Source: Nitrospinaceae bacterium (GTDB taxonomy: Bacteria > Nitrospinota > Nitrospinia > Nitrospinales > Nitrospinaceae). From it: a stretch of DNA of 64,000 nucleotides. A model generated the notes under the pieces. It was not told where the DNA came from, searched no databases, and saw nothing but the letters and a program-made list of their open reading frames with translations. The DNA lies in assembly GCA_024644405.1 (NCBI GenBank), contig JAHELC010000001.1, forward strand, positions 427,844-491,843, given 5' to 3'. Positions 3,133 to 62,864 of this stretch are shown in pieces (the first letter of the stretch is position 1; every line of letters begins with the position of its first letter). The position numbers and the translations under genes are program-made.

Positions 3133-3320
3133 AAAATTTACATCGGATGTTTTCTATGTAAATATTAGAAAAACTTGGACTTACCCGCCAGATCCTTAAA
3201 AAAACCTTTGTTTATAAGGGTTTCAAAAGCTTTGGTCGGTGCAAATACCAAATTCGGACGGAGTATACGGAGGTCCAGATTAATTGTCAAACCACTTTTT
3301 AGCAAACATTCGGGAAACCA

Positions 3321-3348
3321 TTGATTTTTGGCTCAGAATTACTATAAT
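3321..3348 (+). promoter_or_regulatory. Promoter of the zinc-ribbon/FliL-like gene
   Basis: TTGATT (3321-3326) and a perfect TATAAT (3343-3348), spacer 16 nt, 33 nt ahead of the ATG at 3382. The leader is short and the Shine-Dalgarno weak. Confidence 0.6.
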
Positions 3349-3381
3349 GGCTTCCTATAAATCATTAATTAAATTGGTATT

Positions 3382-6300
3382 ATGAAAATTACTTGCCCTA
3401 AATGTCATTCTACCTACAAGGTCGATCTTCCTGATCCAAGTCAGGCTGGGATCGACGTCCAGTGTGGAAATTGTCTTTATATTTTTCTATTTAGCCCTGA
3501 TATCGAAAAACCCGGTCCTGAAGTAATCCAAAGGGGTACCTCAGCGGGAACCGGGAATTCTGATATAAAAAACCGCTCTTCCGAACCAATATTACCACCC
3601 CAAAAGGATGAGGATCAAGAGGTTTCTGGCTCTAATAAACCTTCTCTCGACTCCGAAGACCAGGCCACCCCCTCACCGGAATCCTCACCGGAAACGGACC
3701 GGGAAACCCTTGAGGAGTTGGAACTGGAACCTCTAGTAGACGACCCGGAAGCTATTGAAATTATTGTCGAAAATGACGCCCCTGATGATTCCCTGGAAGA
3801 GGTGGCTCTGGATGATATTTGGGATCAGGCGATGCAAGAAGGGACCCGCGCAACCGGCAAATCCAAAGAAAAATCGCCCTCTACGTCTTCCAGCAAGCCG
3901 GGTGAGGAACCCAATGATGAGGAAACCCTCGATGCAACGCCGACTCCACAGGATAAAAAGTCAAAGCCGCTGCCTTCTCTAGAGGACCGACAACGGGAAA
4001 TCGACCAGATTCTCGCTTCTCACCGGGACAGACAGGGAGCCTCCGGAGAAAAACCCCCGGCTGAAGGATCACAACCTCTCTCCACCCAGAAGGACCGACC
4101 CCAGGAAAAAACCCAGGAAGAAATTGACCTCGAGGAACAGGTTGTCATCAACGAAGAAGAAGCTATGCCCAACTGGGAGGAGGCCTTCACGGATCAGGCC
4201 AAGGTAGAGGCCGGTTGGAAAAAAGCACAGGAGCAAGACCGAATCCTGGAGGAGCAACAGCTGGTAGAAGCTTTGGGCAAGAAAGGGGAACCCACCCCGG
4301 AAGAAAAGGCCGCCCCCCCGGAGGACAAACAGAGCCTCGTTGATGAGATTTTTGCCGAAGCCAAAGGTTCTCATGAACCCCCGAAAGAGACAATTCAAAC
4401 GCCTCAACCGAAATCCGGGGTAGATCAAAAGCAGGACGAGGTCGACCAAATCTTCGCCGAAGCCCAGGCCCGAAAGGCAAAAGCCCAAGAGGAAAGTGAC
4501 CTCGAAGAACAGATCTCCGCCGAAGAGAATACCATGCCCAGCTGGGAAGAAGCCTTCGCTGATCAGTCCGAAGTGGAATCCGGATGGAGAAAAGCCCAGG
4601 TGGAGGATCGTATCCACGAAGAACAACAGCTTTCCGACGCTTTGGGAGAGGAGTCTGCATCCTCGAAACTCTCCGCCGAAGAAATACCGGAAACGCAGGA
4701 AAATAAACAGGACCTCGTCGATCAGTTATTCTCGGAAGCGCGGTCTCAACAGGAATTCGCTAAAGAGCCTGAAGCGATAACGCAGGACGAACCACTGGAA
4801 ATTTCTGATGATATGGTTCCCTCCTCAGAAACTCAGGAGACTCACGTCGACCAACACACGATTCCCGGCGGGATCGATCTGATGACCGATCTGGATGACT
4901 TGAATATGAAGCAATTGGTCACACAGGCTTTTAGGGAGGAATCTGAAGCTCAAGAGAAAACCGAAAGCTCAATACCTGAAATCCCCGCCATGGAGGAGGG
5001 AGGCGAAGAACCCCCCTTAACGATGGAATCCACTGCCGAGACCCCCCAGGAAGCCGAACCACCGCCATTGGAACCCATTCCCCCACTGGAAATGGAATCG
5101 CCCCCGGAAACGACTCCCGAAGCTGAAGAAGTAGAACCGGAACCGGTTGAGGCGATTGCTGAAGCGGAAGATTTTGAAGTCCCGTCGACACGCGAAATGG
5201 AATCTCTCCTGGCAGAAGCCGACGCTGTGAAACAGGAAATACCAGAGGTCCCAGAACCCCTGGAAATGGAATCGGAACCCGAACCCACGCTGGAAACCCA
5301 GGAGACGACCGCTTCCACCTCTTATGATAATGAAGCAGAACTCTGGGCCGATCTCCTTCCCGAAACCCATGAAGAAGGACAGCCCGTCGAAGAGGAGGCG
5401 CCCGTCGCCTTTACCGGGAAAGAGGAAGAAGGACCTTTTGGAGGAGACGACTTCTGGGATCAAGTACTGGAAAAAGACACTCCGGAATCCCAAACGGCCG
5501 AAATCGGTCCTGAACAACCCCCTGTCGCAGCCGAACCTGTGGCTCAGGACGCAGCCGAGAGCGAAACCCTGACAGATGAGGAGCTCTGGAAGCAAGCTTT
5601 TCCGGGAGAGACAGAGCCCGAGCAGGCCGCCTCCCAAGACTCTGGCGAGGAAGCAGAGGATTCCCAATCAAAAGTAGCTCCCCTGGTCATTGGAGCCAGC
5701 GCCAAACCGAACGTCGAGTCGGAAGACTTGCCAGAATATGACGAAGCGGCCTACGCCGATTATGATGATGACGATGACGAATTCGAATTCCAACCCAGAA
5801 AGCGAAAACTCGGCCCCTTCACCCTTCCCCACGGGCGGCGTGGCGATCTGGTAATTGGCGGAGCCATGGTGGTATTTCTTTTGCTCGCAGGAAGTGTCTA
5901 CTTCACCCTGCAAACCTTTGCCCCTGGCGAATTGACCGATATCGAGACGGCCAAAACCGAAGTTCCTGAAGGCCTGAGCCCGCGCGAGGTGCCTTTGGAT
6001 GAACTGGCACAGGAGCTGACATCTCCCAAGCCCCCCAAACCGGAAAAAATCCCAGCGGCGGACACACCGGGAGACAAGGGCGAAGCGATCCTTTCCGACC
6101 CCGCCAAAATTCTGGAAGAATCTCCGGAAGAGAAGGGAATCTTGAAGGACCTGGCTGAATCCAAAATACTGAAGGACACCGGAAAATCGCAGACCGCCAA
6201 AATCGACCAATCCGCTCTCGAGGCCTTGTCCGGCCACTCCGTCACCATGAGCACCATCATGCCCGTCGCCTACAATCCAACGGATATCCGCGTGCTCAGT

Positions 6301-53965: not shown

Positions 53966-55201
53966 TTATCCTTTGACACATATAATCTGGCGCAGGGTGT
54001 GCGCGATTTCCACCAAATCCTTCTGGGCTTCCATGACCGCGTCAATATCCTTGTAAGCCGCAGGAGTTTCATCGATCACTTCATTATCTTTTCGACACTC
54101 CACACCTTCGGTGGCCTTGATATGATCGTCCACCGAAAAACGCCGCCGGGCCTCGGCCCGGGACATCGCCCTGCCTGCGCCATGACTGCAACTTTCGAAA
54201 CTGTCCTTGTTACCCAGACCGCGAACGATATAAGACTTCGCCCCCATGCTTCCGGGAATGATGCCCATATCTCCCAACCGGGCACGCACCGCCCCCTTCC
54301 GGGTAACCAGCACATTGCTTCCAAAATGATTTTCCCGTGCTACATAGTTGTGATGACAATTAACCACTTCCAGGTTAGCTTCAAAAGGCGGGATGCCCTT
54401 GGAGCTCTGCACCGCCTGGATCACAGCCTGCATCATTAACTCGCGGTTGGTCTTGGCAAACGTTTGCGCCCATTCCACCGCCTCCACATAATCGTCAAAA
54501 TGTTCGGACCCTTCCGGAAAATAGGCCAGGTTGATATCCGGTACATTGATATGCCACCGGCGCATATCCTTCTTCGCCAGCTCTATAAAATAAGTCCCGA
54601 TCCGGTTGCCGATGCCACGGGAACCGCTATGCAACATGAACCAAACCTGATCCCTCTCATCCAGACACACTTCGATAAAATGATTGCCGGTACCCAGGGT
54701 TCCCAGATGATTGACGTTATTGCTGTGCTTCCTCATCACCTTGGGATTCTTTTCGGCAATGGAATCCAACCCGGGCGCCAGGCCTTTCCATACTTTCGCC
54801 TGGAGTTCAGGAATATTCGTCCAAGCGCCCCGGTCACCCCGACCGCCATGATGCGTTCTGCCATGCGGAACTGCTTTTTCAATATTGGAACGGATCTCTT
54901 TCAGGTTTTCCGGCATATCGGTTGCCTTCAAACTGGTCTGTACCGCCATCATACCGCACCCGATATCCACCCCGACCGCCGCCGGAATGATGGCCTTTAA
55001 AGTGGGAATCACACTGCCTATCGTCGCTCCCAATCCCCAGTGAACGTCAGGCATAACCGCAATGTGCTTGTAGATAAAAGGCATCTGCGCGACATTCATC
55101 AACTGCTTTTCCGCTTCCTTTTCCAGCGGAACACCCCGGGTCCAGGCTTTGACAGGAACGCCTTTATCTCCCTTTAAAACATTATAATTGTATTTCGTCA
55201 T
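53966..55201 (-). CDS. rtcB: RNA 3'-phosphate ligase RtcB
   Basis: Joins RNA 2',3'-cyclic phosphate and 5'-OH ends with GTP and Mn2+. 411 residues from ATG 55201. Metal-site motifs VGVDIGCGMMAVQT and GTLGTGNHFIE, HGRTHHGGRGDRG, the guanylylated His region in GSRGIGNRIG, and SFESCSHGAGRAMSRAEARR are all conserved. It is divergent from the exosortase operon, sharing its 94-nt promoter region. Confidence 0.96.
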   Translation of the reverse strand: MTKYNYNVLKGDKGVPVKAWTRGVPLEKEAEKQLMNVAQMPFIYKHIAVMPDVHWGLGATIGSVIPTLKAIIPAAVGVDIGCGMMAVQTSLKATDMPENLKEIRSNIEKAVPHGRTHHGGRGDRGAWTNIPELQAKVWKGLAPGLDSIAEKNPKVMRKHSNNVNHLGTLGTGNHFIEVCLDERDQVWFMLHSGSRGIGNRIGTYFIELAKKDMRRWHINVPDINLAYFPEGSEHFDDYVEAVEWAQTFAKTNRELMMQAVIQAVQSSKGIPPFEANLEVVNCHHNYVARENHFGSNVLVTRKGAVRARLGDMGIIPGSMGAKSYIVRGLGNKDSFESCSHGAGRAMSRAEARRRFSVDDHIKATEGVECRKDNEVIDETPAAYKDIDAVMEAQKDLVEIAHTLRQIICVKG

Positions 55202-55212
55202 GTTCCGTTTCT

Positions 55213-55308
55213 CTGCACAAAAACTGCACAAAATTTCCTGAGAATTTCCGCCAACCCGTCATACATATTGCACATGCAAGCATAACACTGAGTGCATGAT
55301 CAATGCAC
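55213..55308. promoter_or_regulatory. Shared rtcB/exosortase control region with TGCA repeats
   Basis: Contains an 11-bp tandem repeat CTGCACAAAAA / CTGCACAAAAT (55213-55234), one helical turn apart. Two inverted repeats follow: TTGCA-ca-TGCAA (55268-55279) and GTGCAT-gatca-ATGCAC (55292-55308). The last overlaps the exosortase ATG. No clear consensus promoter was seen. These look like protein-binding sites for a shared regulator. Confidence 0.55.
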
Positions 55309-56849
55309 GCATACATCTCAATACTCCACGTTTTCTGCCCAGCCTGGTCTTTGGGACAGCCGCTCTAGTCCTGGCCTACGAACCGGTACGCTGGTTGGTT
55401 CAAACCTGGCAGGACCCGGCGTACGACTCTAAAGGATTTCTCATTTTCGGGGTCTGTGCCGGATTGTTTCTGTGGAGTTTCACCAGTTCCCGCGACCCTA
55501 CCCGCCCGGATAATACCCGGTGGGCGCTGATCCTCCTGACCACGACTGCCCTGATCCGTCTGACGGGACAAGTCTTCGCCGTCAACATCATCGGTGCTAT
55601 GGCGTTGGTGGTCGATGTCTACGCGCTGGCCGTTCTGGCCGGTGTTCAGCATAGAGAGCGACCCATTTCTCCCGGCTGGCTGGCGGTTTGTTTTCTGTTC
55701 GCCCTCCCGCTGGAACGGGCGATGCATCACACGGTGGGATATGGCCTGCAGTCCCTTTCCGCTGGAAGCGCCTGTCTGATTCTGGGCGGCTTGTTTGATA
55801 ACGTCAGTTGCCAGGGAGTGCGCATTCTGATCAATCAACAAGATGTACTGGTGGACCTGCCCTGCTCCGGTGCGCGGGCCCTGTTGCTGTTGCAATTGTT
55901 TTATGCCGCCTGCATGACAGTGTGCCGTCCCAATTTAACCTCCGGTTTGTTCGGTTTTTTTGTCACTCTATTTTCCAGTCTTTGGATCAACATTTTTAGA
56001 ATCATGGCACTGGCCGTGGGCATCGCTTATCCGGAAATGGTGTTGGGTATGGATGTCATGGCAGAACCGGGGCATTCCCTTCTGGGCCTGGTGGCCCTGG
56101 CCCTGGGCTGTCTGCCTATTCTGCTCTGGGCACGGCTCACGGAAGATCCCTCCAAATCCCACAACCTGACTAACCATTCAACGCCGAAAGTGTCTATCCC
56201 TCGCGTCAAAGATAAAGGTTTTGTATTCCATTTATTTCAAACCCATCCCGGCACGATGGCTTTAGGGTTTCTGATCGTTGCCGCCGTAATTGTCTGTCTG
56301 CCCAGAACACCAATCGACGTCGCCCGGCCCGATATCAGGATTTCCCTGCCCATGGTGATTGACAATCATGAGGGAGTCCCTTCACCCCTGCTTCCGAAAG
56401 AGAAAATTTACTTCACCCAATATGGCGGCGCGGCGGCAAAGGCTTCGTATGGGAACAATGGTTTGTTATTGATTCAAACCTCATCACCCCTTCGGCACCT
56501 TCACTCCCCCGATGAATGTTTGCGAGGGCTGGGCTTTGAGGTCCAGCACGTCGGGATTTCATACGACACGATACCGACTGCCGTTTACAAAGCCACCACC
56601 GAAGAAGGTCAAAGCTATCGCATCGCCGTCAGTTTTGTTTCCGATCAGGGGCACCACACTTCCAATGTGTCGGAAGCGGTGTGGCGTTGGGCACAGGAGC
56701 CGGGCAGCGTGTGGTCCGCCGTACAGCGCATCTCACCCTGGGAACAAGACGCATCCATTACACGCCGATGGGACCGGGCGGTCCTGGCGGCTCTGGATAT
56801 CGATATTACCCAACGACCTGCTGAATTCATGAAAGAGAGGAAATTATGA
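55296..56849 (+). CDS. Exosortase fused to an EpsI-like domain
   Basis: 517 residues. The first ~275 residues are a multi-pass membrane exosortase with the catalytic Cys C190 (DLPCSGAR), Arg R235 (NIFRIMAL) and His H260 (EPGHSLLG). Residues ~300-517 are an EpsI-like periplasmic domain (SPDECLRGLGFEVQH). It would cut a C-terminal PEP-CTERM tail and anchor the protein through a sugar or lipid. The stop overlaps the VIT-protein start by 4 nt. The start is ATG 55296 with only a weak Shine-Dalgarno. Confidence 0.9.
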   Translation: MINARIHLNTPRFLPSLVFGTAALVLAYEPVRWLVQTWQDPAYDSKGFLIFGVCAGLFLWSFTSSRDPTRPDNTRWALILLTTTALIRLTGQVFAVNIIGAMALVVDVYALAVLAGVQHRERPISPGWLAVCFLFALPLERAMHHTVGYGLQSLSAGSACLILGGLFDNVSCQGVRILINQQDVLVDLPCSGARALLLLQLFYAACMTVCRPNLTSGLFGFFVTLFSSLWINIFRIMALAVGIAYPEMVLGMDVMAEPGHSLLGLVALALGCLPILLWARLTEDPSKSHNLTNHSTPKVSIPRVKDKGFVFHLFQTHPGTMALGFLIVAAVIVCLPRTPIDVARPDIRISLPMVIDNHEGVPSPLLPKEKIYFTQYGGAAAKASYGNNGLLLIQTSSPLRHLHSPDECLRGLGFEVQHVGISYDTIPTAVYKATTEEGQSYRIAVSFVSDQGHHTSNVSEAVWRWAQEPGSVWSAVQRISPWEQDASITRRWDRAVLAALDIDITQRPAEFMKERKL

Positions 56850-58957
56850 AATACTTAAGAACGCACCTGACACTTATCATTTTACTCGCATTTTCTACCA
56901 ATGCATTTGCTCTTTCAGAAAACGACCTGGGGGGATCCGTTCGGGCGGAAGTTGATGGTCAGGCCATCCACTTTCCCGTACTGAAAACGGATATCCAGAC
57001 AAAAGTACAGGGCGATTTGGCGACGGTGACTGTCACTCAAACGTTTGCGAACCCGACCTCGGTTCCTTTGAACGCCACCTATCTGTTTCCCCTGAACAAG
57101 GATGCAGCGGTCCACGCCATGACCATGGAAGTGGGTGACGAGATCATTCAAGCCCAAATCCATAAAATTGGAGAAGCCAGGAAAAAATTTGAAAAAGCAA
57201 AAAAGCAAGGCAAGGCAGCCTCGTTACTGGTCCAGCACCGTCCCAACATGTTCACCCAGCATATCGCCAATCTCATGCCGGGACTTCCCGTCAAAGTTAC
57301 GCTGGTTTACGATCAAACGGTTCCACAAGTAGATGGAAATTACGAGCTGGTTATCCCTTTGATTGTCGGCCCTCGCTATCAGCCCGCCCGCTCCGGCAAA
57401 CCTCCAAAGGTCGCGGATGACGGTGTCACTGTTGGGATCAAAAAAGTCAAAGCCGAATCCCAATTCAACCAGTGGGAAATCGAAGCTCTACCGGCCTACC
57501 CGGATGTTTCCGGGTTGACGATACCTGATACCGTCAGCAAAGACCGGGTTGCGATCAACATCGATCTGGAAGCAGGCGCGACCATCCCAAATATTTACAG
57601 CCGCACTCATAAAATCACAGTGACCGGTGAGAAAAAAAGGAAGTCGATCACTCTGGCCGGAGGTCGGACTGTCGACAATCGGGATTTCGTTTTACGTTAT
57701 CAACTGGCAGGAAAAGATACCCAACCCGCCTTTCTGTCATACAAAGATTTGAACGCCGGTTACTTCAGTTTATGGATCGAACCGCCGGCATCCCCAAAAT
57801 CGAAAGACATCACGGCACGTGAAATGGTATTTGTGCTGGACACCTCCGGTTCCATGAGCGGCCAACCCATCGACGCCAGCAAAGCATTCATGCGCCATGC
57901 TTTGAATAATCTGCGGACCCAGGACTACTTTCGCATCATCCGTTTCAGCAACAACGCTTCCGAATTCACATCGGGCCCGGTCCGTGCCACCCCGAACAAT
58001 ATCAATAACGGCTTGAACTATGTCAAGTCTCTAAGTGCCAACGGCGGAACGGAAATACCCAACGCCATCCGGCAGGCTTTTTCCGTTCCTCAGCCAGACA
58101 GAACTCTTCGGATCGTAGTCTTCCTGACCGACGGTTACATCGGCAACGAATCGGAAGTATTGCGACTCATTACCAGCACGGTAAACGACGCACGCATTTA
58201 CGCGTTTGGAGTGGGAACCTCGGTCAATCGGTTTTTACTTTCCGAAATGGGGAGAAAGGGCCGGGGTTTCGCGCGGTTTATGGATCCCACTGAAGACGCG
58301 GAAGAAGTGGCGCTGGAATTGGCCGGCAAACTGGAATCCCCGGTACTGACAGACATCCATATTGACTGGGGCGAACTTAAAGTGAGCCAGGTGACACCGG
58401 CAGTGATTCCCGATCTGTTTGCGGGAGATTCGATTCGTATTCTCGGAAAATTCGAAGGCAGCGGAGCACATACAGTTGAGGTGAAAGGACGGGTACGTGG
58501 ACGGCAAGCCTCTTTACCGATTCAGGCGGTTCTCCCCGACAGCCACGTGGAAGTCACCGCATCACCGATTCCGCAAATCTGGGCTCGGTCGCAAATCGAC
58601 GATCACATGGGTCAAATCAACGCACCGAAGGCTTATAAAACCACTCACCTCAACAATGACGAGTTGAAGCAAAAGGTGATTGATCTGGGACTCAAGCATT
58701 CGTTGGCGACGCGTTGGACTTCATTTGTTGCGGTCTCCAGAAAAATTGTCAACCAAAACCCACAGAACGCCGAGGATTCACAGGTGCCTCTTCCCATGGT
58801 GAAAGGTGTGGGGCCCAAAGCCTACGGTGAGGCAGCCCCCTACAAGATGGCACAGAATTTTTCCGGAAGTTCCGTTCCGGAACCGGCCAACTGGACAGGA
58901 TTGCTGGTGATCAGCCTGGCGGCCCTGGCATTACTCAAACGCCGCCAACGGGCATAA
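56846..58957 (+). CDS. VIT/vWA surface protein with PEP-CTERM sorting signal
   Basis: 703 residues. The signal peptide ends near AFA (~23). A VIT domain spans ~30-160 and includes NATYLFPL. A vWA domain with the full MIDAS set spans ~320-490: D332, S334 and S336 (DTSGS), T402 and D429 (LTDGY). The C-terminus (677-703) is a complete PEP-CTERM signal: VPEP, then a hydrophobic helix, then KRRQRA. It should be processed by the exosortase encoded just upstream and displayed outside. The next gene follows after 10 nt. AGAGGAAA precedes the ATG. Confidence 0.94.
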   Translation: MKYLRTHLTLIILLAFSTNAFALSENDLGGSVRAEVDGQAIHFPVLKTDIQTKVQGDLATVTVTQTFANPTSVPLNATYLFPLNKDAAVHAMTMEVGDEIIQAQIHKIGEARKKFEKAKKQGKAASLLVQHRPNMFTQHIANLMPGLPVKVTLVYDQTVPQVDGNYELVIPLIVGPRYQPARSGKPPKVADDGVTVGIKKVKAESQFNQWEIEALPAYPDVSGLTIPDTVSKDRVAINIDLEAGATIPNIYSRTHKITVTGEKKRKSITLAGGRTVDNRDFVLRYQLAGKDTQPAFLSYKDLNAGYFSLWIEPPASPKSKDITAREMVFVLDTSGSMSGQPIDASKAFMRHALNNLRTQDYFRIIRFSNNASEFTSGPVRATPNNINNGLNYVKSLSANGGTEIPNAIRQAFSVPQPDRTLRIVVFLTDGYIGNESEVLRLITSTVNDARIYAFGVGTSVNRFLLSEMGRKGRGFARFMDPTEDAEEVALELAGKLESPVLTDIHIDWGELKVSQVTPAVIPDLFAGDSIRILGKFEGSGAHTVEVKGRVRGRQASLPIQAVLPDSHVEVTASPIPQIWARSQIDDHMGQINAPKAYKTTHLNNDELKQKVIDLGLKHSLATRWTSFVAVSRKIVNQNPQNAEDSQVPLPMVKGVGPKAYGEAAPYKMAQNFSGSSVPEPANWTGLLVISLAALALLKRRQRA

Positions 58958-58967
58958 GGAGGCAAGC

Positions 58968-60485
58968 ATGATGCAGGCACAGGAACAATACCAGCTGGGA
59001 GGGCGGGCTGTGGCCTGCCTCCTGCTGGCAGGATTGGCGGACCTTCTATTTTATATGGAAGGAATAGGATGGACCGTCGGCTTCTACAATTTCGTTATTT
59101 TAATTGCCGTATTATTTTTTAATCGCAGCCTGGCCCAGTCCAAACCCAACAAGATCGTGATTGCAATTAATTGGGTCTTGGTACTTGCGCTCATTGAAAA
59201 CCCCAGTGGCTTGACGATGTTTCTGAGTTTTTTGGGGATCACCAGTTTGGCCCTGTTAAGCCATCCGGGTTGGACTCAAAATGCCTGGTTGTGGTTCAAG
59301 GGGATCTTCAATTTCTGGGCTCAGAATATTCTCCGGGTTTTTAAAGATACGAAACTTTTTAAGTACCTGCACCAGGGAGGCGGCAATCCAAGTCGGGCGG
59401 GCATTCAATTAAAAAACTGGATATTGCCGATTGGGCTGTCTCTGGTGTTTGTGATTCTTTTTGCGGGGGCCAACCCGATTTTGATTCGCTGGCTGGACTT
59501 GATCAACTGGGATTGGATCTTCGAATTGTTCGCATTCGAACGAATCCTGTTGTGGTCGCTGGTAATCATTTTGTGTTGGCCTCTGCTCCAGCCCAAGTTC
59601 AAGTTGAATCAGAAATCTTTACGGGAAGAGGATTTCAAGGATGTTAGAAATCTGATTCGCTTTTTATTTTCCAAGGAATCGATTCTATACTCACTGATTC
59701 TTTTCAATCTTTTGTTCTCCGTGCAATCCGGAATGGACCTCATTTACCTGTGGGGAGGAACGGCACTGCCGGATGGAATGTCATACGCGGAATATGCCCA
59801 TCGCGGAGCCTATCCTTTAATCGCCACTGCCCTGATGGCAGGCACTTTTGTATTGGTGGCTCTGCGTCCGGGCAGCGAGACGGAAAGAATGCCATCTATC
59901 CGGTATCTCGTTTATTTCTGGATCGGACAAAATGTTTTCCTGGTTATTTCTTCTATTTGGAGAACAGCCCTATATATAGAAGAGTATTCCCTCACTTATT
60001 TGCGCCTCGCGGCGCTGATATGGATGGGGTTGGTCGCGTTGGGCCTTGTTTTGCTTGTGTTGCGAATACTCTGGACCCGAACCAATACCTGGCTCCTTAA
60101 TCTCAACGGGATCACCCTGCTAACGGTATTAATGGTGTGCACCTTTATCAACTTTGGAAGTGTGATTGCCCAATTCAATGTAAAGCATTGCACGGAAGCA
60201 AACGGCAAGGGACCGGCACTGGACCTGAAATATCTGGAAGAAATCGGCGTCGCCTCCCTACCGGCACTGCGCTGGTTTCAACAGCATGGCAACCCATATA
60301 ATTACAAAATGTCAAAAATCGTAAAACTGGAAGGACACTTGCAAAGCATTTTAAAACGCGAACTCAGGGAATGGCGAACCTGGACATTCCGGAATTACCG
60401 ATTGTCCCGGAACTCAGGAACCGGTGGAAATTTCAACACATCCACCGACTCTTCCGGATGGATAATTATCCCGGGACAAAAATGA
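58968..60485 (+). CDS. DUF4153/DUF4173-type polytopic membrane protein
   Basis: 505 residues with about twelve hydrophobic helices and a soluble C-terminal tail. The region from YAEYAHRGAYPLIATALMAG to YLRLAALIWMGLVALGLV matches DUF4153-type proteins (recently split as DUF4173). Function unknown. It has an AGGAGG Shine-Dalgarno and is in the exosortase operon, so it may support transport or lipid carrier supply for the exosortase (inference). Confidence 0.8.
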   Translation: MMQAQEQYQLGGRAVACLLLAGLADLLFYMEGIGWTVGFYNFVILIAVLFFNRSLAQSKPNKIVIAINWVLVLALIENPSGLTMFLSFLGITSLALLSHPGWTQNAWLWFKGIFNFWAQNILRVFKDTKLFKYLHQGGGNPSRAGIQLKNWILPIGLSLVFVILFAGANPILIRWLDLINWDWIFELFAFERILLWSLVIILCWPLLQPKFKLNQKSLREEDFKDVRNLIRFLFSKESILYSLILFNLLFSVQSGMDLIYLWGGTALPDGMSYAEYAHRGAYPLIATALMAGTFVLVALRPGSETERMPSIRYLVYFWIGQNVFLVISSIWRTALYIEEYSLTYLRLAALIWMGLVALGLVLLVLRILWTRTNTWLLNLNGITLLTVLMVCTFINFGSVIAQFNVKHCTEANGKGPALDLKYLEEIGVASLPALRWFQQHGNPYNYKMSKIVKLEGHLQSILKRELREWRTWTFRNYRLSRNSGTGGNFNTSTDSSGWIIIPGQK

Positions 60486-60537
60486 ACTGTGGTGACGAGT
60501 CAATGTGGTACCATAATTTAATATAGGAATAATACCC

Positions 60538-61263
60538 ATGATGTTGCAAACAAGGCTTGATCTTATGGCAAGGACGATTCTTGTAGTGGATGACGATCCT
60601 CATATCCGGGAAGTGATTAGCTACGCTTTGGAACAAGCGGGAATGACACCGGTAGAGGCCATGAACGGACAGAAAGCGCTGGATCTGGTTGATCGGGAAA
60701 ACCCGGCTCTGATCATCCTGGATATCAACATGCCGGAGGTGGACGGCTTTCAGTTTTGCAAGGAACTTCGCAAAACTTCCGAAGTGCCGATTCTGTTCCT
60801 CTCATCGAGAGACGAGGAGATTGACCGGGTGGTCGGCTTGGAAATCGGTGGCGACGATTACGTTGCCAAACCTTTCAGCCCGCGGGAGTTGATGGCCCGG
60901 GTCAACGCTATCCTGAAACGGGCGCAGGCGCCACAAAGTCCATTGCCTGAGGATACATCCCAAATTTTGAAACACGGACTTCTTACTTTGGAACCCGAGA
61001 AGCATCGGATCACATGGAATAAGAAATCTGTGGAATTGACGGCGCGGGAATTTGCCATCCTTCAGGCTTTCCTGAAATATCCGGAAATTGTTTTCGACCG
61101 TGACCGGATTATCGAGCACTCCTGCGAAACCAATTCCTTTATCAGCGACCGAACTGTAGACAGTCACGTACGTCACATACGAAGCAAGTTTTCGGAACTG
61201 GGCTGTAACTCCATCATCGAAACGATTCATGGGGTGGGATATAAACTAGGATCCTGCCGGTGA
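60538..61263 (+). CDS. OmpR-family response regulator
   Basis: 241 residues. Receiver domain with the acidic pocket VVDDDP and phospho-Asp D62 (LIILDINMP), then VFLSSRDEE-like LFLSSRDEEID and the Lys region (DDYVAKPFSPREL). C-terminal winged helix of the OmpR/PhoB type (LTAREFAILQAFLKYPEIVF, HVRHIRSKF). Its first nine residues may be an N-terminal extension with a second Met at residue 10. It overlaps the kinase by 4 nt (GTGA) and belongs to the exosortase operon. Confidence 0.95.
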   Translation: MMLQTRLDLMARTILVVDDDPHIREVISYALEQAGMTPVEAMNGQKALDLVDRENPALIILDINMPEVDGFQFCKELRKTSEVPILFLSSRDEEIDRVVGLEIGGDDYVAKPFSPRELMARVNAILKRAQAPQSPLPEDTSQILKHGLLTLEPEKHRITWNKKSVELTAREFAILQAFLKYPEIVFDRDRIIEHSCETNSFISDRTVDSHVRHIRSKFSELGCNSIIETIHGVGYKLGSCR

Positions 61264-62864
61264 ATCTTCCGCACAAGAAACGCAGATACCGCCTCCGCAC
61301 CATCCTTCTGGTGGTCAACCTGACCGTATTGATTCTTCCTCTGGGGAGCATCTTTTTTTTCAGAATATTTGAAAACCTACTTGTGCGACAAACCGAACTG
61401 GAATTGATTTCGCAGGCTGCGGTTATTTCCTCCATATACAAAAACCAAATTATTCATTCGATGTTTGACCCGAGCAGCTACGGCAAACCGTTGCCGGAAC
61501 CCGAGCCTAAACCCGAAGATGAAATCTATTCACCGGTACTGCCCGTACTTGATTTGTCGGAAGATCCGGTTCTTCCTCCCCGGCCGGATGGCGTGGAGCC
61601 GGACTCCGATTCCCGCACAGATCCCATCGTCGTCGCCATTGGTAAAAATTTATCGTCTATTCTTCTCGATACGAAAATGACCACACTCTCCGCGATTAAA
61701 ATTCTGGACTACCATGGAAACACTGTAGCGGGGCAGTCAGAGTTCGGGCTTTCGTTTGCCCGAGTAGAAGAAATCAAGTCGGCATTAGAAGGGAAATATA
61801 AAAGTGTAATCCGCGAAAGAATATCCGACGAGCCCCCTCCCCCCATCGCCTCGATCAGCCGGGGGACCAGCATCCGGGTGTTCATCGCCTTTCCGGTTAT
61901 TCATGAAAACCGTCTGTGGGGCGTGGTTTATATCTCCCGGACTCCTAAGAACATACTTAAAAACCTTTATGCGCAAAAAGGGAAAGTGGTTCTGGCTGGT
62001 GTGTCCATTATCGGGCTGACCATCCTGCTGGTTTATTTTACATCGCGCACGATTTCTCGGCCCGTTTATCAGTTGATCCAACAGACCCAGGGCGCTTCCG
62101 AAGGAAATATCAAAGCCATGCAGCCGCTCGATGACCCGGTCACCGAAGAAATGGAGATGCTCTCAAATAGCTTTTCCCGAATGGCGCTCTCCCTGCATGA
62201 GCGTTCAGAGTATATTCGGGAATTCGCCTCCTACGTTTCCCATGAGTTCAAAACCCCGCTGACCGCCATCCAGGGAGCAAGCGAACTGTTACTCGAACAC
62301 TATGAAGGAATGTCGCCTGAAAAAAGAAGGAAATTTATCGAGAATATGCTGCAGGATTCCGACCGACTCAAACTCCTGGTGGAGCGACTGCTGGAATTGG
62401 CTAAAGCGGAAAACCTCACTCCCTCGAAGGAAACAGCAAACCTGTCGGTTATCCTCAACAAATTGAAAAACAAGTTTACTTCACGGGGGCTTGATATCGA
62501 AATCAAATCCCAATCCAACTATCAACTCAAAATTTCTGAGGACATTCTCGAAACAGCGCTTTCCAACCTGGCGACCAACAGCCTGCAACACGAAGCCACC
62601 CGCATTGAACTGGATGTAAGAAAAAAGGATAATGAAGTCTTTCTCGAGATGCGGGATAACGGTAGGGGTATACCTCCGGCGAACCGGGATAAGATATTTA
62701 TGCCGTTCTTCACAACCAACCGGGAAAAAGGTGGAACCGGCCTGGGACTCCGCATCGTTCAAACCATGATCGAGGCTTATTCCGGGAAAATCGCTTTGGG
62801 CGAAACCCAAAAAGGAACTCTTTTCACCCTTCAGTTTCCCCTGGTTCAGTTCAAGAACGGATGA
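61260..62864 (+). CDS. HAMP-domain sensor histidine kinase
   Basis: 534 residues from GTG 61260. Helix ~14-34; periplasmic part with a Pro/Glu-rich stretch (~78-110, EPEPKPEDEIYS) and a PAS-like fold ending in LWGVVYISRTP; helix ~244-264; HAMP ~265-315; HisKA with H328 in SYVSHEFKTPLTAIQG; HATPase_c with DNGRGIPP and GGTGLGLRIVQ. Partner is the response regulator just upstream. It likely senses envelope state linked to the exosortase product (inference). Confidence 0.93.
   Translation: MNLPHKKRRYRLRTILLVVNLTVLILPLGSIFFFRIFENLLVRQTELELISQAAVISSIYKNQIIHSMFDPSSYGKPLPEPEPKPEDEIYSPVLPVLDLSEDPVLPPRPDGVEPDSDSRTDPIVVAIGKNLSSILLDTKMTTLSAIKILDYHGNTVAGQSEFGLSFARVEEIKSALEGKYKSVIRERISDEPPPPIASISRGTSIRVFIAFPVIHENRLWGVVYISRTPKNILKNLYAQKGKVVLAGVSIIGLTILLVYFTSRTISRPVYQLIQQTQGASEGNIKAMQPLDDPVTEEMEMLSNSFSRMALSLHERSEYIREFASYVSHEFKTPLTAIQGASELLLEHYEGMSPEKRRKFIENMLQDSDRLKLLVERLLELAKAENLTPSKETANLSVILNKLKNKFTSRGLDIEIKSQSNYQLKISEDILETALSNLATNSLQHEATRIELDVRKKDNEVFLEMRDNGRGIPPANRDKIFMPFFTTNREKGGTGLGLRIVQTMIEAYSGKIALGETQKGTLFTLQFPLVQFKNG

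Follow-up and report, generated by a model that had tools for sequence, protein, structure and literature searches.

Several described systems resemble parts of the locus analysed here. The available part of PMC3237569 (2011) describes one family of VIT/vWA proteins that carry GlyGly-CTERM, LPXTG or PEP-CTERM tails, as well as sorting systems in which one enzyme serves one target; for the PEP-CTERM case it gives neither a regulator nor an operator. Two-component control of PEP-CTERM genes is known from PrsK/PrsR, with a common upstream sigma-54 motif (available part of PMC1569441, 2006). For the CreBC system (BlrAB), the accessible text of PMC4689548 reports that a TTCAC-N6-TTCAC tag upstream of creD is critical for binding by activated CreB/BlrA, and that loss of creD in Stenotrophomonas leads to envelope defects. 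We analysed a stretch of 64,000 nucleotides (nt) from a Nitrospinaceae bacterium (GenBank assembly GCA_024644405.1, contig JAHELC010000001.1, positions 427,844 to 491,843), here called the window, in which five genes encode an exosortase T (XrtT), a VIT/vWA protein with a PEP-CTERM tail, a DUF4153 membrane protein, a response regulator and a sensor histidine kinase (Table 1). It is likely, in our judgement, that the CreB-like regulator, via a direct repeat TGCAC-N6-TGCAC upstream of xrtT, switches on a one-substrate exosortase T unit, probably upon disturbance of the envelope. An earlier reading made from the letters of this DNA (the sequence-only reading) overlooked this predicted operator.

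The repeat emerged when the regions upstream of 65 xrtT genes were scanned for 5-base words that recur: TGCAC at a spacing of 11 base pairs (bp) turned up in 36 loci, as against at most 2 in shuffled sequences. TGCAC-N6-TGCAC is perfect in 36 of the 65 regions and present with at most one mismatch in 44 of them, compared with 1.5% and 3.0%, respectively, of 1300 random windows taken from the same loci. Thirty-eight perfect sites lie in the 19.5 kilobases (kb) upstream of xrtT versus 2 in the remaining 1.11 megabases of the loci, and 37 of these 38 are oriented in the direction of xrtT. When the loci are clustered at 60% XrtT identity, 17 of 24 clusters have a perfect repeat. One locus with a perfect copy is L050, from the cultured Sinimarinibacterium flocculans DSM 104150. 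The window copy, TGCACAAAAACTGCAC (55214-55229), is the sole perfect one in the 64 kb, and no perfect copy occurs in another 400 kb of the same contig. The presence of the repeat (at most one mismatch) also differs between loci with the regulator (36 of 49) and those without it (2 of 8; Fisher p = 0.013, a guide only, as the loci are related). As in the CreBC-CreD system described in the available part of PMC4689548, an OmpR-type regulator (Pfam Response_reg and Trans_reg_C domains) and a membrane kinase stand with a direct repeat of a 5-bp word, at 6-bp spacing, upstream of the output; the two repeats differ by one base per word (TGCAC in the window, TTCAC for CreB), and the window output is an exosortase unit, creD not being beside the window pair. 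The CreB word itself, TTCAC-N6-TTCAC, was rejected as operator, being found in 0 of the 65 xrtT upstream regions. Because CreB is the best NCBIfam match of the regulator, and because the repeat has the CreB-tag layout with one base changed in each word, we infer that the regulator would bind TGCAC-N6-TGCAC upstream of xrtT and activate.

The kinase family extends well beyond xrtT. No Pfam family matched the sensor region of the window kinase. The sensor domain is conserved among 25 kinases of xrtT loci. It was found (alignment A4) in 12 of 289 alphaproteobacterial genomes, in 9 of 369 gammaproteobacterial ones and in 5 of 77 from the window's phylum, which together make up 26 sensor-domain loci; at most 9 candidates per genome were scored in the Alphaproteobacteria and at most 7 in the Gammaproteobacteria, so that kinases were possibly missed. 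Of the 289 alphaproteobacterial genomes, 4 have an exosortase T match above cut-off, and each of these 4 also has the sensor domain (Fisher p = 1.7e-6, or 4.2e-5 when the centre genome is left out). A VIT target (E-value 1e-20) is present in all four genomes that have both kinase and exosortase T, and in none of the 8 that have the kinase without exosortase T. Nine of the 26 loci have exosortase T and VIT genes beside the pair, two have an exosortase-VIT unit of a second type, and one has CreD; DUF4153/DUF4173 is the neighbour in three, and in a fourth the DUF4153/DUF4173 gene is cut by a contig end. Two contigs are too short to judge the output. Plasmid matches, of which 6 of 13 were opened, gave DUF4173 in three, CreD in two and one cut at the record start; the loci with CreD beside the same kinase family are L152, L167 and L168.

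The repeat follows the family to these other outputs. Eleven loci of the kinase family lack xrtT in the stretch and include a recognised output gene together with its upstream region; all 11 carry the repeat on the coding strand within 300 bp upstream of that gene, perfect in 10 and with one mismatch in the other, versus 1.2% perfect and 2.1% with at most one mismatch in random windows. This set omits L192 (DUF4153 gene cut by the contig), L165 (record starting at the regulator) and L147 and L148 (short contigs), and the output starts of L153 and L156 are those of the model match. On sequence grounds the exosortase does not have the regulator pair to itself; the pair belongs to a family of CreBC-like regulators whose envelope outputs are exchangeable. 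The sequence-only reading had taken the pair to be dedicated to the exosortase, which does not agree with the finding of exosortase T in only 4 of the 12 alphaproteobacterial genomes with the sensor domain, nor with the relatives beside CreD or DUF4153/DUF4173. Its further suggestion that the kinase senses successful anchoring is at odds with the lack of any VIT target (E-value 1e-20) in the other 8.

In a tree of 58 kinases, which left out eight near-duplicate Ruegeria kinases and broken kinases, the xrtT-linked ones do not form one group, and well-supported branches force at least 5 changes. The link between kinase and xrtT thus arose or was lost repeatedly. The window kinase groups with Nitrospinota relatives and with the alphaproteobacterial xrtT-linked kinases of L037 and L038 (support 99/94), a grouping that suggests transfer between phyla. 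L186 (2578-6319) and L191 (1522-5712) contain the second kind of exosortase-VIT unit, which diverges from the pair and is preceded by a perfect repeat. Its VIT-domain protein (793 or 828 amino acids, aa) has a membrane N-terminus and ends in a PEP-CTERM-like tail; the exosortase, closest to XrtQ (147 and 140 bits, cut-off 270), is encoded separately, as is a small protein that matches the EpsI-like half of XrtT at 34 bits in both loci. The regulator family thus has exosortase-VIT units of two different designs as neighbours. The second unit resembles the XrtN-VIT (TIGR04476/04477) and MSEP-CTERM (TIGR04286) systems, which likewise combine an exosortase with a VIT-domain target (TIGR04477 118 and 106 bits, cut-off 250); the window exosortase stays far below the XrtN cut-off (TIGR04476 32.2 bits, cut-off 200).

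The xrtT neighbourhood itself was compared in 66 loci, namely the window and 65 from a scan of genome contigs, which are spread over Nitrospinota, Alpha- and Gammaproteobacteria and a few other labels. The VIT gene follows xrtT in 60 of the 66. Four of the other six stop at a contig edge; the remaining two are L072, with VIT further downstream, and L091, with a short xrtT and no VIT found. This pairing of xrtT with VIT goes beyond chance. In 50 of the 66 loci xrtT has a response regulator of the same family nearby (39 downstream, 9 divergent and 2 upstream in the same direction), and the kinase adjoins it except in L072 (2.8 kb on), some kinases being in pieces or cut by a contig end. Of the 16 loci without a regulator, 8 end too early downstream to tell, a class judged on downstream room alone (L049 has 0.7 kb upstream). 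The gene order expected by the sequence-only reading is thus largely conserved, in three arrangements of the regulator, and the pair is mostly not unlinked from xrtT in relatives. The inclusion of DUF4153 in the unit fared differently: it is present in 4 of the 66 xrtT loci (the window, L030, L084 and L039, plus a weak fragment in L091) and missing from L029 of the same genus, and was rejected as a core member. The alphaproteobacterial loci L034-L036 have an extra open reading frame of about 144-150 aa between VIT and regulator.

Gene 1 matches the exosortase T model NF033770 over profile positions 2-472 of 472 (619.9 bits, cut-off 250), and the name exosortase T has already been applied to proteins of Nitrospinota and Alphaproteobacteria. 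Across 23 aligned XrtT sequences, C190, R235 and H260, the Cys, Arg and His of exosortases, are unchanged, and so are H401, H403, C408 and R410 in the EpsI-like half. The exosortase-EpsI fusion noted earlier is thus real, with both halves in gene 1, but it is family-wide: because the NF033770 match spans the whole length, C-terminal half included, the fused half belongs to the exosortase T family and is no novelty of this locus. By analogy with what is proposed for exosortases, XrtT is predicted to cleave and anchor a PEP-CTERM protein.

The adjacent VIT/vWA protein (Pfam VIT 106.6 bits, vWA 62.7 bits) passes the PEP-CTERM threshold by a small margin (18.4 bits, cut-off 16). Read by eye, nearly every complete VIT protein of these loci ends in a PEP-type motif, a hydrophobic stretch and a basic end, with exceptions lacking PEP, for example in L089. 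In its own genome we found a single exosortase match above cut-off and two PEP-CTERM matches, one being the VIT protein and the other a protein of 258 aa encoded on contig C22 (9 kb, G+C 0.61). The tetranucleotide distance of C22 to the window is 0.39, exceeding the 0.09-0.17 found among window segments, from which we take C22 to be probably a contaminant of the assembly. Its PEP-CTERM protein was rejected as a second XrtT substrate for this foreign composition, the contamination being itself a probable rather than an observed matter. Contig C22 (genome G000, locus L026) also encodes a 1607-aa pyruvate:ferredoxin oxidoreductase-like protein. Among 31 XrtT-bearing genomes, 21 have no other exosortase match and 10 have further exosortases; 18 of the 21 XrtT-only genomes have 0 or 1 PEP-CTERM match, the window's own genome having 2. 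The claim of a single target mostly holds, the one other PEP-CTERM protein of this genome lying on the 9-kb contig of foreign composition, with the reservations given below for two genomes and for the tail model.

In L016, an xrtT locus without regulator pair and without repeat, a 259-aa protein (3222-4001, genome G029) lies downstream of the VIT gene and overlaps it; its end reads HKDHFHLDNGVYQRCLG, and it has no strong family match.

The arrangement also parallels the marine proteobacterial sortase system (TIGR03784, 03785, 03787, 03788), as the sequence-only reading had proposed. Of 185 gammaproteobacterial genomes, 23 have the marine sortase above cut-off and 27 at E-value 0.001, and 16 of these loci were retrieved for comparison. 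A VIT/vWA homologue with a C-terminal sorting tail stands beside the sorting enzyme in all 16 (425-486 bits against the model of the XrtT-locus VIT proteins), and 14 of the stretches include a regulator-kinase pair, which diverges from the VIT and sortase genes in 12. Since the exchangeable tails of the VIT/vWA family are published (available part of PMC3237569), this parallel was known in outline. There are also differences: the marine enzyme is a sortase (TIGR03784) whereas window gene 1 is an exosortase, and the marine regulators (132-222 bits) and kinases (93-200 bits) are distant from the XrtT-locus pair. In the reverse direction, the window proteins stay below cut-off for VIT (TIGR03788, 472.4 bits, cut-off 551.65), regulator (TIGR03787, 160.6 bits, cut-off 335.7) and kinase (TIGR03785, 88.4 bits, cut-off 612.2). 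These low scores led us to reject the marine-sortase pair as a close relative of the window pair; perfect TGCAC-N6-TGCAC is absent from the 16 marine-sortase loci. PrsK/PrsR differ in having an NtrC-like regulator, another motif, many substrates and an exopolysaccharide setting (available part of PMC1569441).

A number of findings weigh against a CreB-like regulator acting through the repeat on a one-substrate unit. The matches of regulator and kinase to CreB (NF008296, 228.9 bits, cut-off 273) and CreC (NF008312, 190.7 bits, cut-off 356), each the best in NCBIfam, remain under cut-off, and the CreC match begins at kinase residue 203, leaving most of the sensor region uncovered. Eight of the 26 sensor-domain loci have no recognised output gene, and the repeat is nearby in some only: a perfect copy precedes the regulator by about 400 bp in L151, and L154, L155, L184 and L188 have a one-mismatch copy close to it, while none was found near the regulator in L185, L189 and L190. 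The repeat (at most one mismatch) is missing from 13 of 49 regulator-bearing xrtT loci, that is from L072 and 12 roseobacter-type loci, the latter retaining one TGCAC and often, by eye, a second TGCGC/TGCAC 22 bp on; conversely, L055 and L073 carry the repeat without a neighbouring regulator. Such loci are what one would expect if the repeat were bound by some other transcription factor and the pair of regulator and kinase were a neighbour with its own job. We nevertheless regard this as unlikely, given that the repeat tracks the kinase family across CreD, DUF4153/DUF4173, the second exosortase-VIT unit and xrtT, and given its CreB-tag layout beside a regulator whose best match is CreB. A pair private to the exosortase, with a kinase that reports successful anchoring of the VIT protein, would account for the regulator near xrtT in 50 of 66 loci and for the sensor domain shared by 25 of their kinases; it appears quite improbable in view of the 8 of 12 alphaproteobacterial sensor-domain genomes that have neither exosortase T nor a VIT target (E-value 1e-20), and of the family members beside CreD or DUF4153/DUF4173.

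The direction of control is another point on which readings may differ. Activation is the usual role of OmpR-type regulators that work with direct repeats placed upstream. One could imagine that the regulator represses the cluster through the repeat until a signal relieves it, the VIT protein being made when the kinase is off, and the position 82 bp upstream permits either sign, which the sequence does not fix; since CreB acts as an activator on creD through a tag with this layout (available part of PMC4689548), we give this little credence. Finally, XrtT could be an ordinary many-substrate exosortase in an exopolysaccharide setting, with the VIT gene merely its nearest substrate. Two genomes speak for this and thus against the one-substrate view, G095 and G097 (those of L071 and L078), with 7 and 4 PEP-CTERM matches and XrtT as sole exosortase (E-value 0.001), and so does the insensitivity of the tail model, which missed the VIT protein's own tail in 10 of the 21 XrtT-only genomes. 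Against these stand the 18 XrtT-only genomes with 0 or 1 match, the 3 to 8 PEP-CTERM matches of each of six among the ten multi-exosortase genomes, these six having a strong second exosortase (215-225 bits), and the VIT gene after xrtT in 60 of 66 loci. Moreover, the two window neighbour genes that were profiled (Pfam, NCBIfam) are RtcB-like and thioredoxin-like, neither being an exopolysaccharide gene. A many-substrate exosortase of this kind is, in our opinion, very improbable.

Our preferred reading is thus that of a CreB-like activator in charge of a one-substrate exosortase T unit. By analogy with CreBC and CreD, the kinase would read an envelope condition, probably a disturbed cell envelope. 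Because loss of creD gives envelope defects (available part of PMC4689548), an envelope signal would be the likeliest input of the kinase, and likelier than an anchoring signal. Exosortase T, once switched on, would cleave and anchor the adjacent VIT/vWA protein, likely its only substrate, which would thereby serve as an envelope-response output, and DUF4153 would be a second output carried in the cluster of some Nitrospinota.

Table 1. Features of the exosortase T cluster in the window (positions are those of the 64,000-nt stretch).
Feature	Position	Strand	Evidence or remark
Cluster of five genes	55296..62864	+	neighbour spacings: overlaps of 4 nt, gaps of 10 and 52 nt
Candidate operator TGCAC-N6-TGCAC	55214..55229	+	first base 82 bp upstream of xrtT start codon
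Exosortase T (XrtT), C-terminal half EpsI-like	55296..56849	+	NF033770 619.9 bits; PF09721 67.3 bits
C190 codon, presumed catalytic cysteine	55863..55865	+	invariant, 23 aligned sequences
R235 codon, presumed catalytic arginine	55998..56000	+	invariant, 23 aligned sequences
H260 codon, presumed catalytic histidine	56073..56075	+	invariant, 23 aligned sequences
EpsI-like half of XrtT, about residues 345-503	56328..56804	+	inside XrtT model; conserved residues
VIT/vWA protein, predicted XrtT substrate	56846..58957	+	PF08487, PF13768; overlaps xrtT by 4 nt
PEP-CTERM tail of VIT/vWA protein	58874..58951	+	TIGR02595, 18.4 bits, cut-off 16
DUF4153 membrane protein, optional extra output	58968..60485	+	PF13687 213.6 bits; 10-nt gap after VIT gene
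OmpR-type CreB-like response regulator	60538..61263	+	best NCBIfam match CreB; 52-nt gap before gene
CreC-like sensor histidine kinase	61260..62864	+	HisKA and HATPase; best NCBIfam match CreC; 4-nt overlap with regulator
Predicted periplasmic sensor region of kinase	within 61260-61970	+	

The coordinates, common strand and spacing (from a 4-nt overlap to 52 nt) given for the five genes by the sequence-only reading were all borne out, and this spacing suggests a single transcript. By comparison with homologues the response regulator may start at 60565, which would make the preceding gap 79 nt. The RtcB-like gene (53966-55231) is listed as starting with TTG at 55231; comparison with its relative in L017 points to a start near 55201, and the repeat would then lie between divergent rtcB-like and xrtT genes. 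Another exosortase locus was seen in L020, L021, L024 and L025 (genomes G001, G002, G006 and G003, of the window's genus). In L020 and L021 the small preceding proteins have common tails, LPIQYMVLSG...FYIRKRK, perhaps a PEP-less sorting signal particular to that exosortase locus.

Prior work covers the enzyme family, sorting systems with a single target, the exchange of tails, and two-component control over other PEP-CTERM genes. In a literature search that left most subscription papers outside its scope, we found no paper on exosortase T, nor in print its link to a CreBC-like pair, the TGCAC-N6-TGCAC repeat or the set of exchangeable outputs; TGCACN6TGCAC or TGCACNNNNNNTGCAC, strings sought only in combination with exosortase or creD, likewise returned no paper. 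One might speculate, and we do so with some doubt, that one operator word of a CreBC-like family commands CreD, DUF4153/DUF4173, or two kinds of exosortase-anchored VIT/vWA proteins. The exosortase T unit would then be an inducible envelope-maintenance system, in which the VIT/vWA protein does the surface job done elsewhere by CreD. A single 16-bp repeat connects exosortase-anchored VIT proteins with the outputs of CreBC-like regulators and names a candidate promoter, and TGCAC-N6-TGCAC upstream of membrane-protein genes offers a way to find more outputs of the family in genomes. According to the available part of PMC1569441, further regulators and DNA motifs of PEP-CTERM systems were still to be found; the window pair and its repeat are a candidate for such a regulator and motif.

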